Shown here: positions 46,054-61,144 of the stretch, one piece after another
Position numbering within the stretch: the first letter of the stretch is position 1
Layout: every line of letters begins with the position of its first letter
From: Myxococcales bacterium
GTDB taxonomy: Bacteria; Myxococcota; Myxococcia; Myxococcales; Myxococcaceae
Assembly (NCBI GenBank): GCA_030681895.1
Contig: JAUXRI010000013.1
Span: forward strand, 1-64,000
Length of the DNA: 64,000 nucleotides
Direction: 5' to 3'
Notes under the pieces: model-generated
Database searches by the model: none
Told to the model about the DNA's origin: nothing
The model's input: only the letters and a program-made list of their open reading frames with translations
Position numbers and translations under genes: made by a program

Positions 46054-46863
46054 GTGATCGCCTTCGCCCTCGCCGCCGTCGTCGCCGCCAGCCCCGCGCC
46101 GCACCGTCTGAAGTGGGACCCCCGAATCGATCTGCCCGTCACCGGCGTGCTGATGGCCGGCTGGGTGGTGAGCGAGTTGGCCCTCAAAGATTCGCTCGCG
46201 CCCGATGCGTGCCGCTGGTGCGCGACGAACGCCTTCGACACTGGCGTTCGCCGCGCGTTCAACCCGAGCTTGAGCCCGAGCTCGTCTGGCATTCGGCCGG
46301 CGGCGACGGCGTCTGACATTCTCGGCTTCGTCGCGGTGCCGCTGCTCGTCGCGGGCATCGACGCCCTGGGAGCGATGGACTCGCCCGAGTTCCTCAAGAC
46401 GTGGGGCATCGACCTGGTGATCATCCTCGAGGCGACGTTCTCGGCCCTGGCGGTGAACCAGACCGTGAAGTTCGCGGCCGGCCGCGGGAGGCCGTACTCG
46501 GTCGATGCGCCGGCAGAGCTGCTCGCGCAGGCAAGAGATCCTCACGATCACACCCTGTCGTTCTTCTCGGGCCACACCACCTTCACGGTCGGCCTCGCGG
46601 TGTCGGGCGGCGTCGTCGGTATGCTCCGCGGGTACCGGTTGGGCTGGCTGAGCTGGGCGGTGGCGCTGCCGCTGGCGTTGACGACCGCGACGCTGCGCAT
46701 GGCGGCGGACAAACATTGGATGACGGACATTCTGGTGGGCGCGGCCGTGGGGAGCGCATTCTCGGTGGCGTTGCCGCTGCTGTTCCATGGCCGCGAAGAC
46801 GCGCCGGTCAGCGTGCGGGTGAGCCCGACGCCGAACGGGGTCAGCCTGGCCGGGACGTTCTGA
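46054..46863 (+). CDS. PAP2-family membrane phosphatase
   Basis: A 269-residue membrane protein of the PAP2 (type 2 phosphatidic acid phosphatase) family. The three phosphatase motifs are present: K139-x6-R146-P147 in KFAAGRGRPY, S172-G-H174 in SFFSGHTTF, and R215-x5-H221-x3-D225 in RMAADKHWMTD. It has several membrane helices, and the start is GTG 46054 with a leading hydrophobic segment. Likely substrates are lipid phosphates such as undecaprenyl pyrophosphate or phosphatidate in the periplasmic leaflet. It follows the kinase gene by 21 bases and converges on the TOPRIM-like gene. Confidence 0.9.
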   Translation: MIAFALAAVVAASPAPHRLKWDPRIDLPVTGVLMAGWVVSELALKDSLAPDACRWCATNAFDTGVRRAFNPSLSPSSSGIRPAATASDILGFVAVPLLVAGIDALGAMDSPEFLKTWGIDLVIILEATFSALAVNQTVKFAAGRGRPYSVDAPAELLAQARDPHDHTLSFFSGHTTFTVGLAVSGGVVGMLRGYRLGWLSWAVALPLALTTATLRMAADKHWMTDILVGAAVGSAFSVALPLLFHGREDAPVSVRVSPTPNGVSLAGTF

Positions 46864-46901
46864 AACGAGTTCTCAGGCCTCGGAGCTCAGCACTCGTTTC
46901 A
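46861..46901. terminator. Inverted repeat at the PAP2/TOPRIM convergent ends
   Basis: TGAAACGAGT at 46861-46870 and ACTCGTTTCA at 46892-46901 form a perfect 10-bp stem with a 21-base loop. The repeat covers the stop codon of the PAP2 gene and the last codons of the TOPRIM-like gene. It could end transcription from both sides; there is no T-run, so this is an inference from position. Confidence 0.5.
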
Positions 46902-47445
46902 CATCGTCGAGCCACCGCTTGAGATCGTTAGAGAGGGGTTCGGGCTTTCCGTCCCAGTCAGCGACGATCGCTTCCATCTGCGCAGTCGAAAGGCTTCCGA
47001 GGGCCTCCTGAGCTCCGACTTTGGACCAGCCACCCTTCTTCCGATCTCCGCGAAGCTCGAGCACCCAGCCCTCAATGCATGGTTCGACCACTGCAAGCGC
47101 AACGTGACTGTGCGCGTCTCTGAGTGTCGTGAGAACCGCCGCTCGCTCCTCACTGCCGTCGGTGTCGCGGCCATAGATGAGGACGTCGCATTCAGCTTCG
47201 CGCGTTCGTTGGAGCGCGCCGGCGAATCGCTTGCGCTCTCCTTCTTCGAGACCACGTCCGACTCCCAAGACCGGAAGTCGTCGGTACGCGCAGCCGTCGT
47301 GGATCTGCCATCCCGATGGCGCCTGCCGGTGAGCGAGCGTGCCGAGAACGCCATTCTCGGTCTTCTTTGCGCGGTACGGCTCGTCGGTCTCCCAGCGACC
47401 GATGTCATGTTGCCCTTCTCCGACGAGGAAGACCTTCAGCGACAT
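46873..47445 (-). CDS. TOPRIM / DUF4276-like protein, partner of the AAA ATPase
   Basis: A 190-residue cytoplasmic protein with a TOPRIM-like layout: first strand and glutamate in KVFLVGEGQHD (E10), then the D-x-D-G motif in CDVLIYGRDTDGS (D94, D96), then VVEPCIEGWVLEL (E125), which resembles the EAWLLAD block of DUF4276 proteins. TOPRIM domains of this type cut nucleic acids in OLD-family and PARIS-like defence systems. The ATG lies two bases after the stop of the ATPase gene, so the pair is one unit. Hand-counted stretches are lower in GC than flanking genes. Nuclease activity is inferred; the family label is from motif memory. Confidence 0.68.
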   Translation of the reverse strand: MSLKVFLVGEGQHDIGRWETDEPYRAKKTENGVLGTLAHRQAPSGWQIHDGCAYRRLPVLGVGRGLEEGERKRFAGALQRTREAECDVLIYGRDTDGSEERAAVLTTLRDAHSHVALAVVEPCIEGWVLELRGDRKKGGWSKVGAQEALGSLSTAQMEAIVADWDGKPEPLSNDLKRWLDDVKRVLSSEA

Positions 47446-47447
47446 GC

Positions 47448-48395
47448 TCAGGGCTTCCGCTTCGGGTTGAGCAGCGCCTCTTCGCTGACGCCGTCGCTCA
47501 GCGCGATCCAGAGCTCACCAAGGTTCCACGCGGAAGCGCGCTCAGCGAAGTGAGGCGTCTTGTCCATGCGAGTGAACTTCGTGCCCTCGGCCTCGGTGCG
47601 GGTCACGAGGGTCACTTCGTGGGCTTCGAGTTCGTTGATGATGAGCGGGCTGTGAGTCGCCATCAGGATCTGCGTGGTCTTCGAGACCTCGCGGAGGATG
47701 CGGACGACTTCCTTGATGCGCGCGGGGTGAAGCCCGTTCTCGGGCTCTTCGATCAGGAGCATCGAGGGCTTCTCGATGTAGGGCAGCAAGGAGAACGCCA
47801 GGAAGTACAGCATGCCTTCCGACATGTGTTCGGGCCGGACCTCAGTGCCGTCTTTGAGGCGAACGCCGATTGCTCGACCGCTGCTTGTGGTGAACAGCCG
47901 AAAGCCCCCGACCGTTGGGAACATCGCCAGAACCTGAGCTTCGAGCTTCTCGCGATCAGCCAGACTCCGCGCGAGCAGCCCGTCAACCAGGCGACCGAGG
48001 CCGGCACCTCGTTCGTTGACGAAGTCGAAGGGGGTGCCATCGACGAGCAGAGGATGAGCTTCGCGCATCGCGTCTGGGTCGAGGCGCAAGGTTCGTGCGC
48101 GAGCTGAGATCTTGCCGCGAGCACGAATGCCTTGCATCACCTTGTTCGCGGCCGAGGAGAACTCGTCCGATTCTCCAGCAAGACGAAGCGACCAGGGCCA
48201 GTTGGCTTTCTGTTGCGCCAAGAGCGGATGTCCACTTCCAACGAAAGATCCGACGATGGCCTCGATCGCACGAAGGGTCATCGACTTGCCGGAATCGTTC
48301 GGCCCGATCAGCGCGTGGAATGGCGACAACTCAAGCGTCGCGTCCTTGATCGGCCCGAAGCTCTGAATCCTGACCTGCTCGATGACCGGGGACAT
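47448..48395 (-). CDS. AAA (AAA_21/OLD-like) ATPase, putative defence component
   Basis: A 315-residue ABC/SMC-like ATPase of the AAA_15/AAA_21 group. Walker A is GPNDSGKS (31-38), the signature motif is MSEG (191-194), Walker B is LLIEEPENGLHP (213-224) and the H-loop is ATHSP (246-250). The opening VRIQSFGPIKDATLELSPFH is typical of OLD and PARIS AriA-type ATPases, though this one is shorter (315 against roughly 400-500). It is encoded directly ahead of a TOPRIM-like gene on the same strand, the layout of several ATPase-nuclease defence pairs. The start ATG at 48395 is divergent from lspA. Antiphage function is inference from family and context. Confidence 0.82.
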   Translation of the reverse strand: MSPVIEQVRIQSFGPIKDATLELSPFHALIGPNDSGKSMTLRAIEAIVGSFVGSGHPLLAQQKANWPWSLRLAGESDEFSSAANKVMQGIRARGKISARARTLRLDPDAMREAHPLLVDGTPFDFVNERGAGLGRLVDGLLARSLADREKLEAQVLAMFPTVGGFRLFTTSSGRAIGVRLKDGTEVRPEHMSEGMLYFLAFSLLPYIEKPSMLLIEEPENGLHPARIKEVVRILREVSKTTQILMATHSPLIINELEAHEVTLVTRTEAEGTKFTRMDKTPHFAERASAWNLGELWIALSDGVSEEALLNPKRKP

Positions 48396-48451
48396 GGTGT
48401 CTGGAACCTACCTTGCCGGAACACGGCGTCACTTTCACGCAGGGGCAAGCT

Positions 48452-48492
48452 TGCGTCGCTCCAGGGTCGTTTTTCGACCCTGCTGCGACGCA
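48452..48492 (+). promoter_or_regulatory. Long hairpin in the lspA leader
   Basis: An 8-bp stem (CAGGGTCG/CGACCCTG, 48462-48469 with 48475-48482) closes on a TTTTT loop and is extended, after a 2x2 mismatch, by a second 8-bp stem (TGCGTCGC/GCGACGCA). The structure ends 18 bases before the lspA ATG, so in RNA it would sit over the ribosome-binding region. It may control lspA or insulate it from the divergent ATPase gene. Confidence 0.6.
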
Positions 48493-48510
48493 CGACACGC
48501 CAGTCGACCC

Positions 48511-49146
48511 ATGTCTGACCGGTTGCGCGCCAAGCGCCGGGGTGGCAAGGCCCTGCCCGTGTCAATCGCGCGCCGTTTCATCCTCTTCGGGGTCGTCACC
48601 TTCATCTCCATCGCGCTCGATCAGGTGACGAAGGTGCTGGCGACCGAGGCCTTCAAGGGCAAGCCCACGCTCTCGTACCTGGGCGACACCTTTCGTTTTC
48701 AGTTCGCGACGAACGAAGGCGCCTTCCTCTCGCTGGGTGGCAACCTGCCGGCGAGCGCGCGGTTCTGGCTCCTCACCGTCGGCGTCGGCGGCCTGCTGCT
48801 CGCCATCACAGTGCAGGCGCTCCGCAACCCGGTCGATACCGCCAACCTCACCGGCTACGCGCTCATCGTCTCGGGTGGCTTCTCGAACTGGATCGATCGC
48901 GCCCGCTTCGACGGCGTCGTCGTCGACTTCATGAACATGGGCCTGGGGTCGCTCCGGACGGGCGTCTTCAACATCGCCGACCTCGCGATCCTCGCGGGCA
49001 TCGGCGTGTTGCTCATCTCGGGCTGGAAGCAGGACCGCGCCGCCAAGGCGAAAGCCGCGCAACCGGCCGACACCACTGCGCCGCCGACTCACCCAGTCGC
49101 AGCCGACCCTGCCCCCGCGCCCGAAACTCCGCGTCAGGACAGCTGA
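48511..49146 (+). CDS. lspA: Lipoprotein signal peptidase (signal peptidase II)
   Basis: LspA cleaves signal peptides from prolipoproteins in the inner membrane. The protein is 211 residues from ATG 48511. Conserved blocks: LDQVTKVLA (36-44), FATNEGAFLSL (65-75), GGFSNWIDRARFDGVVVDFM with catalytic Asp129, and VFNIADLAI with catalytic Asp157. Four membrane helices are clear. The last 40 residues are a disordered Ala/Pro-rich tail (KAKAAQPADTTAPPTHPVAA), longer than in the enterobacterial enzyme. At least four predicted lipoproteins are encoded in this window. The leader contains a long hairpin. Confidence 0.95.
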   Translation: MSDRLRAKRRGGKALPVSIARRFILFGVVTFISIALDQVTKVLATEAFKGKPTLSYLGDTFRFQFATNEGAFLSLGGNLPASARFWLLTVGVGGLLLAITVQALRNPVDTANLTGYALIVSGGFSNWIDRARFDGVVVDFMNMGLGSLRTGVFNIADLAILAGIGVLLISGWKQDRAAKAKAAQPADTTAPPTHPVAADPAPAPETPRQDS

Positions 49147-60927: not shown

Positions 60928-61144
60928 CTGGGGCCTGACGCGAGCGCAGCGCCCGGCTGACGGCTCACCGTCGTGCGTCACGTCAGGGTCGGAAACCGCA
61001 CCGGGAATGACACTCGTCGAGCGGACTCCTGCGCATCGCGTCGCCGCGAGTCACGGCCCCTCAGCTCATGCGAGCGACGCGACCACGCCGGGCGACCCCA
61101 CTTCGCATCGGCGGCTGGATTGGTCGATCACGGCGTCCATGGCC

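Follow-up and report, generated by a model that had tools for sequence, protein, structure and literature searches.

Does a compact gene pair inserted into a myxobacterial genome encode an antiphage system? A sequence-only reading of the 64,000 nt analysed here (the window; contig JAUXRI010000013.1, Myxococcaceae) had singled out two adjacent genes, A and B (Table 1), as a candidate defence module composed of an ATPase and a small TOPRIM-like partner. To our knowledge, defence in myxobacteria has been little studied. The open reading frames agree with that reading in position, strand and length (315 and 190 aa), and gene B begins 2 bases downstream of gene A in the ORF list. The module was rightly described as antisense to its neighbours: the flanking genes, which by features of their sequences look like genes for a kinase, a PAP2-like protein and an LspA-like protein, all lie on the plus strand.

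Table 1. Features of the A/B locus (window coordinates)
Feature	Coordinates	Strand	Description
Gene A	47448-48395	minus	OLD-type ABC ATPase, 315 aa, TOPRIM-free chain
Gene B	46873-47445	minus	small protein, 190 aa, distantly DUF4276/RloB-like, TOPRIM element order
Inserted cassette	46865-48513		1,649 bp, about 62% GC, at the PAP2-lspA junction
Left flank, PAP2-like phosphatase gene	46054-46863	plus	matches in 27/31 genomes searched, own included
Right flank, signal peptidase II-like (LspA) gene	48514-49146	plus	G153 alignment begins at 48514
Left-end hairpin	46862-46902		arms GAAACGAGT / ACTCGTTTC; overlaps end of B, convergent PAP2-like/B junction
Right-end hairpin	48448-48495		in the spacer between the divergent genes A and lspA; one copy of a palindromic repeat dispersed in the genome

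The two genes lie in an insert. Relative to a genome of the same genus (G153), 1,649 bp in the window replace 6 bp, while the flanks align with identity of 89.4% and 90.7% in alignments ending at 46864 and 48514. The junction is also empty in a second genome of the genus (G150). The lspA-like ORF has a longer start, at 48382, which reaches into the insert. GC content of the cassette is 62.2%, and among 1,247 same-size intervals of the 64 kb no other is so low; the GC3 values of B (0.69) and A (0.77) are below the 0.88–0.92 of eight other genes of the window. The lower GC content ascribed to the module thus holds for the cassette as a whole and for third codon positions. The composition of the cassette is foreign-looking, and the cassette was apparently acquired recently. 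Since A and B occupy 1,521 of its 1,649 bp, there is no space in it for a transposase gene. At the identical PAP2-lspA junction of a third genome of the genus (G152, locus L161) we observed a different stretch of ∼445 bp; the junction may, therefore, accept cargo repeatedly.

Hairpins had been reported at both ends of the module, and both fold better than shuffled sequences. For the left-end hairpin z was −2.45 on the plus strand and −3.69 on the minus strand (5 and 1 of 200 shuffles as good); for the right-end hairpin z was −4.43 (0 of 200 shuffles as good). Neither end of the cassette gave a terminator call in a simple scan. The right-end repeat, which is possibly REP-like, has eight further matches in its own genome, some of them partial, and a weaker match with three mismatches at 60972-60995; five copies of a related form, bounded on one side by GAAACGAGTGTC, are present as well (up to three mismatches allowed; control 0). 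Membership of the left-end hairpin in this repeat family was rejected, as the window contains two matches to the motif vs a chance mean of 6.16.

The product of gene A carries the Walker A motif GPNDSGKS at residues 31–38 and the elements MSEG, LLIEEPENGLHP and ATHSP, all located in the ORF as claimed for it earlier. It matches Pfam AAA_21 with 98.2 bits. In an alignment of 41 A sequences (window and 40 of the 47 core loci defined below; L024, L027, L036, L050, L062, L064 and L066 left out), Walker residue K37 is kept in all 41, and G36, K37, S192-E193-G194, E216, E217 and H248 (Walker A, signature, Walker B and H-loop) are kept in 35–41 sequences. The AlphaFold model of A (pLDDT 86.6) resembles the heads of PtuA and RecN in PDB by Foldseek, with TM scores of 0.42–0.58 and large rmsd; E-values of 5e-12 to 3e-10 refer to the first 42 of 50 matches listed. 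The AAA_21 match and the resemblance to the PtuA fold uphold the assignment of A as an OLD-type ABC ATPase. Its chain ends after the ATPase, a TOPRIM domain is absent from its 315 residues and B is a separate ORF; the pair is, as stated before, not an in-frame fusion. Segments 54–69 and 71–76, in the region after the Walker A helix, have pLDDT below 50, and it is in this same region (∼54–76) that relatives of A vary most in length. Our guess is that residues from about 54 to 76 may be the likeliest trigger-sensing part.

In TOPRIM nucleases a Glu follows strand 1 and a DxD motif follows strand 3. The motifs pointed out in B, E10, D94-x-D96 and the EPCIEGWVLEL block, are all present, and the acidic residues are strongly conserved in an alignment of 44 B sequences with identity to the window protein down to ∼20%: E10 is found in 43 of 44, D94 and D96 in all 44, and E125 in 41. 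This alignment includes the window, 37 of the 47 core loci, L082 (where B is present and A is cut) and 5 of 19 second-tier loci, so that 6 of its 44 rows are non-core members; it leaves out loci with no B (L053, L060, L066), B in pieces (L027, L050) or cut (L040, L062, L064), a B of odd length (L036) and a near-duplicate (L024). The AlphaFold model, made with the 43 relatives, has pLDDT 93.0 and pTM 0.89. Its elements follow in the order strand, helices, strand, helix, strand, helix, strand, helix; E10 comes just after strand 1 (residues 3–9), D94-x-D96 closes or follows strand 3 (88–94) and E125 comes after strand 4. The order of elements and the conserved E and DxD agree with the TOPRIM-like catalytic layout suggested initially; from the model we infer that B would adopt the TOPRIM fold, and the almost complete conservation of E, DxD and E at sites like those of TOPRIM nucleases points to probable metal-dependent catalysis.

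The two genes form a near-fixed operon when viewed from either of them, the outcome of a co-occurrence check that the sequence-only reading had called for. Starting from B, we found nine other loci in the phylum; A adjoins B in all eight with room for it, in one of them cut by the contig end. Starting from A, we took the best 80 of 288 relatives (79 loci), which make up the core, second-tier and third-tier loci; their apparent taxonomic range is biased by this cut and by search patterns built from Myxococcota sequences. The two counts have seven contigs in common. B is located directly downstream of A in 44 of the 47 core loci, L040, L062 and L064 among them with B cut by a contig end. In 42 core loci the A-B spacing is from −8 to +14 bases, with start codons of B picked by script, and in two (L027 and L050) B is in two pieces. 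B is missing from three core loci. In L066 only 2 bases of contig remain after A. L053 and L060 resemble each other in sequence, and the 235 and 454 bases that follow A in them encode something else; A can, therefore, stand alone. A lipoprotein-looking frame was seen in place of B after position 3794 in L053 and after position 2795 in L060. Elsewhere B is damaged: besides the two loci with B in pieces, an in-frame stop interrupts it in L013; sequencing error is possible in these cases. A B-like gene adjoins A in all 19 second-tier loci (E ≤ 7e-6). The third-tier loci (n = 12) have no B; seven have a match to the DUF4276 profile, two have no room and three have another small ORF.

Distances between A sequences and between B sequences are correlated (r = 0.56 over 38 loci; none of 999 permutations as high), a result that could also stem from shared ancestry alone. 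Among four Sorangium loci dN/dS was 0.18–0.45 for A and 0.23–0.40 for B, values that indicate purifying selection on both genes there.

The distribution of the pair is patchy. A survey that scored the best 17 candidates for B and the best 10 for A in each genome found core B at no less than 150 bits in 9 of 189 phylum genomes and A at E ≤ 1e-55 in 8 of 189; neither was found in the six other genomes of the genus. There was no match to B in phage records or in plasmids, no match to A in viral contigs by pattern search and none to A in plasmids at E ≤ 1e-15. Two records titled as Klebsiella pneumoniae MAGs (L050 and L097) carry the A-type ATPase, which is otherwise present mostly in myxobacteria and planctomycetes; these titles are probably wrong.

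A link of the pair to defence islands, the other point that the sequence-only reading wanted checked, is not seen in its neighbourhood, and on this point the result speaks against that reading. Genes were taken from a home-made gene caller run on 36 of the 47 core loci (34 after removal of L023 and L024). The near set consists of 98 of 124 genes chosen by hand, with mostly long genes and some farther-off ones dropped, and the far set of 98 of 103 genes, with five long ones dropped; some ‘near’ genes are several kb away, as genes longer than 1000 aa or shorter than 100 aa were skipped. At E ≤ 1e-15, the near genes (34 loci) gave two matches to AriA (of AAA_21 type) and one each to AbiLi, PDC-M38A, mad6, MkoA and PD-T4-6 kinase models, vs two to four for each of the PD-T4-6 kinase models, four for MkoA, three for mad6 and one each for SoFic, AbiEi and AbiEii among the far genes (30 loci). 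No enrichment of defence genes near the pair is seen in this comparison, which covers the first 25 of 41 (near) and the first 25 of 49 (far) PADLOC families. Among the Pfam families of the near genes (first 25 of 95), those of metabolism, transport and signalling predominate.

We read A and B as a two-gene ATPase-effector immune module with PARIS-like logic, and consider this reading reasonably, though far from securely, probable. It draws on the operon, the ATPase motifs, the E/DxD/E set, the kinship of B to DUF4276, the RloB-like viral model and the A-type ATPases at canonical DUF4276 loci (all described below), the insert, the patchiness, the selection on both genes and the precedent of PARIS. 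There, in the account of PMC12409363, the TOPRIM tRNase AriB is sequestered by AriA and let go when a phage protein acts as the trigger. In such a module A would be an ATP-driven sensor and scaffold, while B would be a small TOPRIM-type metal-dependent nuclease held inactive by A. A phage product, or damage caused by the phage, would alter A, and B would be freed or activated. Freed B would then cut nucleic acid and in this way stop phage growth, probably at the expense of the cell; its target could be RNA, for example tRNA, following PARIS, or DNA, following OLD and Gabija. Here we infer the nuclease chemistry, the restraint by A, the trigger and the role in defence. Counted against the immune module are the lack of defence enrichment among neighbours, of a PDB match for B and of phage, viral-contig or plasmid copies, together with the lone A in L053 and L060, the B profile scores for DUF4435 and OLD-TOPRIM, which do not surpass those for unrelated families, and a DUF4276 alignment that begins only beyond E10. 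Literature searches found no published activity test of the A/B pair. Among PADLOC candidates, PDC-M63AB and PDC-S04 were inactive when tested in one host, as PMC12409345 relates, and antiviral activity of several HECs, including HEC-06, is described in PMC12988326.

Much of the same anatomy would fit a selfish, toxin-antitoxin-like cassette in which B is a toxic nuclease kept in check by A, and persistence is due to addiction, not to defence of the host. A lone two-gene cassette with patchy distribution, among neighbours showing no enrichment of defence genes, suits such an element, as do the broken copies of B (L027, L050 and L013) and the solitary A (L053 and L060), which look as if B is sometimes lost while A is kept. 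However, no copies were found on plasmids or in phages, and both genes are under purifying selection in the four Sorangium loci, whose flanking genes are arranged alike as far as gene sizes alone tell. We regard the addiction cassette as unlikely, though to be taken seriously.

A further alternative accepts the operon and questions the chemistry: B could have a regulatory or binding role, as a DUF4276-type protein with only the acidic residues and the layout in common with nucleases. The B model had no PDB match by Foldseek at E ≤ 0.001, its top matches looking like chance, and the B sequence had none at E up to 10. In a library of viral structures Foldseek found nothing at E 0.001; among the 50 matches listed, a single one, an RloB-like viral model at rank 5, had TM above 0.5 (TM 0.51, probability 0.92, E 0.11). 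Window B has no Pfam match at E up to 1, DUF4276 (PF14103) included, whereas its relatives are connected to known families: at E ≤ 0.01 the 44 B sequences match DUF4276 in six cases, DUF5983 in three, RloB in two and FMN_dh in one. At the same threshold one HEC-01B model of PADLOC matches 16 of the 44 and one PDC-M25B model matches 12 (lowest E 3.4e-6 and 2.2e-6, respectively). All these counts are taken over the 44 rows with the six non-core ones included.

In profile comparison, DUF4276 aligned to the 38-row core B profile with E 4.9e-5 and probability 67.7, vs 0.28–0.58 for five column-shuffled controls; the alignment begins at about residue 28 of B and thus leaves E10 outside. DUF4435 (E 0.25) and OLD-TOPRIM (0.18) are not reached by the B profile, since two unrelated families score alike (0.18 and 0.87), and such E-values are rough, as one shuffled control gave 0.0025 against DUF4435. 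The description of B as DUF4276-like is, therefore, correct at a distance, through the profile and six of the 44 aligned sequences, but does not extend to a Pfam match of the window protein itself; its separation from DUF4435 stands, by absence of a Pfam match and by the profile comparison. The missing PDB match, the lack of similarity to DUF4435 and OLD-TOPRIM profiles and the fact that DUF4276 is not named in the literature searched all leave room for a non-nuclease. Against it, E, DxD and E are near-invariant at TOPRIM-like positions across 44 sequences diverged to ∼20% identity, and we find a B devoid of nuclease function rather improbable.

Least probable, and very unlikely in our view, is a pair for chromosome maintenance or repair: it has a precedent in the archaeal OLD-family protein Cran1, which according to PMC12796447 acts in the progression of the cell cycle and apparently has no part in defence, and it suits the mainly metabolic, transport and signalling neighbours, but a core function would be less patchy than B, which at 150 bits was not found in 180 of 189 phylum genomes, including all six others of the genus, and the genes lie in an insert with empty sites elsewhere and low GC3.

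How, then, does the immune module that we favour relate to the named systems? The best PADLOC model for window A is HEC-01A (PDLC04175; 2e-29), closely followed by an AriA model (1e-28); this model is as long as Pfam AAA_21 (304) and could be a general one. Each of the 41 aligned A sequences matches several HEC-01A models with E ≤ 1e-10; the best E-value of the set, 4.8e-40, is also to HEC-01A. HEC-01, a candidate in PADLOC-DB, likewise has two genes; the window pair differs from it in that window B has no match to HEC-01B at E up to 1, and a PADLOC-style search would for this reason probably miss the pair. PDC-M25, another PADLOC-DB candidate, is similar in its first component (window A matches PDC-M25A with 79 bits) and dissimilar in the second, as window B matches PDC-M25B over residues 1–40 only (E 0.0038). 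The initial placement of the pair outside the named subtypes needs, therefore, to be qualified: A finds its best model in HEC-01A and relatives of B weakly match HEC-01B and PDC-M25B, while window B itself properly meets neither.

PARIS (AriA and AriB), assigned to OLD class 4, resembles the window pair in having an ABC ATPase and a TOPRIM-type effector, putative in the case of B, split into adjacent genes. Membership in PARIS was rejected, as AriB is a DUF4435 protein and window B is not, and as ATPases adjacent to DUF4435 branch apart in the tree. OLD class 1 and Gabija (GajA) have an ATPase of the same family as A, with ATPase and TOPRIM domain within one protein, as described in PMC10568477; they were rejected as well, A being a 315-aa protein with no fused TOPRIM. 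The MADS system, compared by MAD3 alone, was rejected because MAD3, the best NCBIfam match of A, scores 107.8 bits, far under the curated cut-off of 420. The immediate neighbours of the pair look PAP2-like and LspA-like, whereas in Gabija the helicase GajB adjoins GajA.

The phylogeny of 61 ATPases (23 of the 41 aligned core A rows, 13 of the 19 second-tier ones, 20 located beside DUF4276 and five beside DUF4435) was built by a quick search and rooted on the five DUF4435-adjacent ATPases. The 23 core A rows, mostly from Myxococcota-type genomes, make a single clade with SH-aLRT support of 100, neighbouring but separate from the ATPases paired with DUF4276-type proteins, the kind to which the PADLOC candidates HEC-01 and PDC-M25 belong. 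This clade joins a mostly planctomycete set with B-like partners (support 93, not starred); outside this joint group fall the DUF4276-adjacent ATPases, their own unity having weak support (30). At the canonical DUF4276 loci that were fetched, a part of those matched, an A-type ATPase is directly upstream in 29 of 30 (80–124 bits), in the same gene order; at DUF4435 loci the A profile finds an ATPase in five of nine (13–50 bits). The profile matches and the tree together place the A/B pair as a divergent lineage of the pair of ATPase and DUF4276-like protein. PMC12839542 credits earlier work by Aravind and colleagues with operons that combine genes for an OLD-ABC ATPase and a TOPRIM protein; the general kind, neighbouring OLD-ABC and TOPRIM genes, has thus already been described, and the window pair is, as far as its sequences tell, a Myxococcota-centred variant of it. 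The DefensePredictor paper (PMC13092281) does not mention toprim, OLD, RloB or PARIS.

More tentatively, and with more doubt than belief, the pair might represent an immune lineage of its own, centred in Myxococcota: an OLD-type ATPase of minimal size and a small, divergent TOPRIM effector, moving as a lone compact cassette that stays out of defence islands and has a trigger and a nucleic-acid target of its own. Such a lineage would be missed by present defence-finding models, as B falls under the family cut-offs tried. Should A and B work as the favoured immune module proposes, a compact ATPase-effector pair would be added to the split OLD/TOPRIM systems, such pairs would also occur outside defence islands, beyond the reach of guilt-by-association searches, and a small two-protein system would be at hand for testing trigger, restraint and nuclease target.

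Two observations touch on the wider family. The genome that contains the window has no match to DUF4276 or DUF4435; it has three OLD-like TOPRIM matches elsewhere (contigs C91, C223 and C337). At three loci with distant A-type ATPases (L089, L092 and L093) the gene after the ATPase encodes another small protein, marked by a block that is FLDxEGSG-like or reads CLDFAWEG; this protein is missed by both the B and the DUF4276 profiles and is perhaps a further type of partner.
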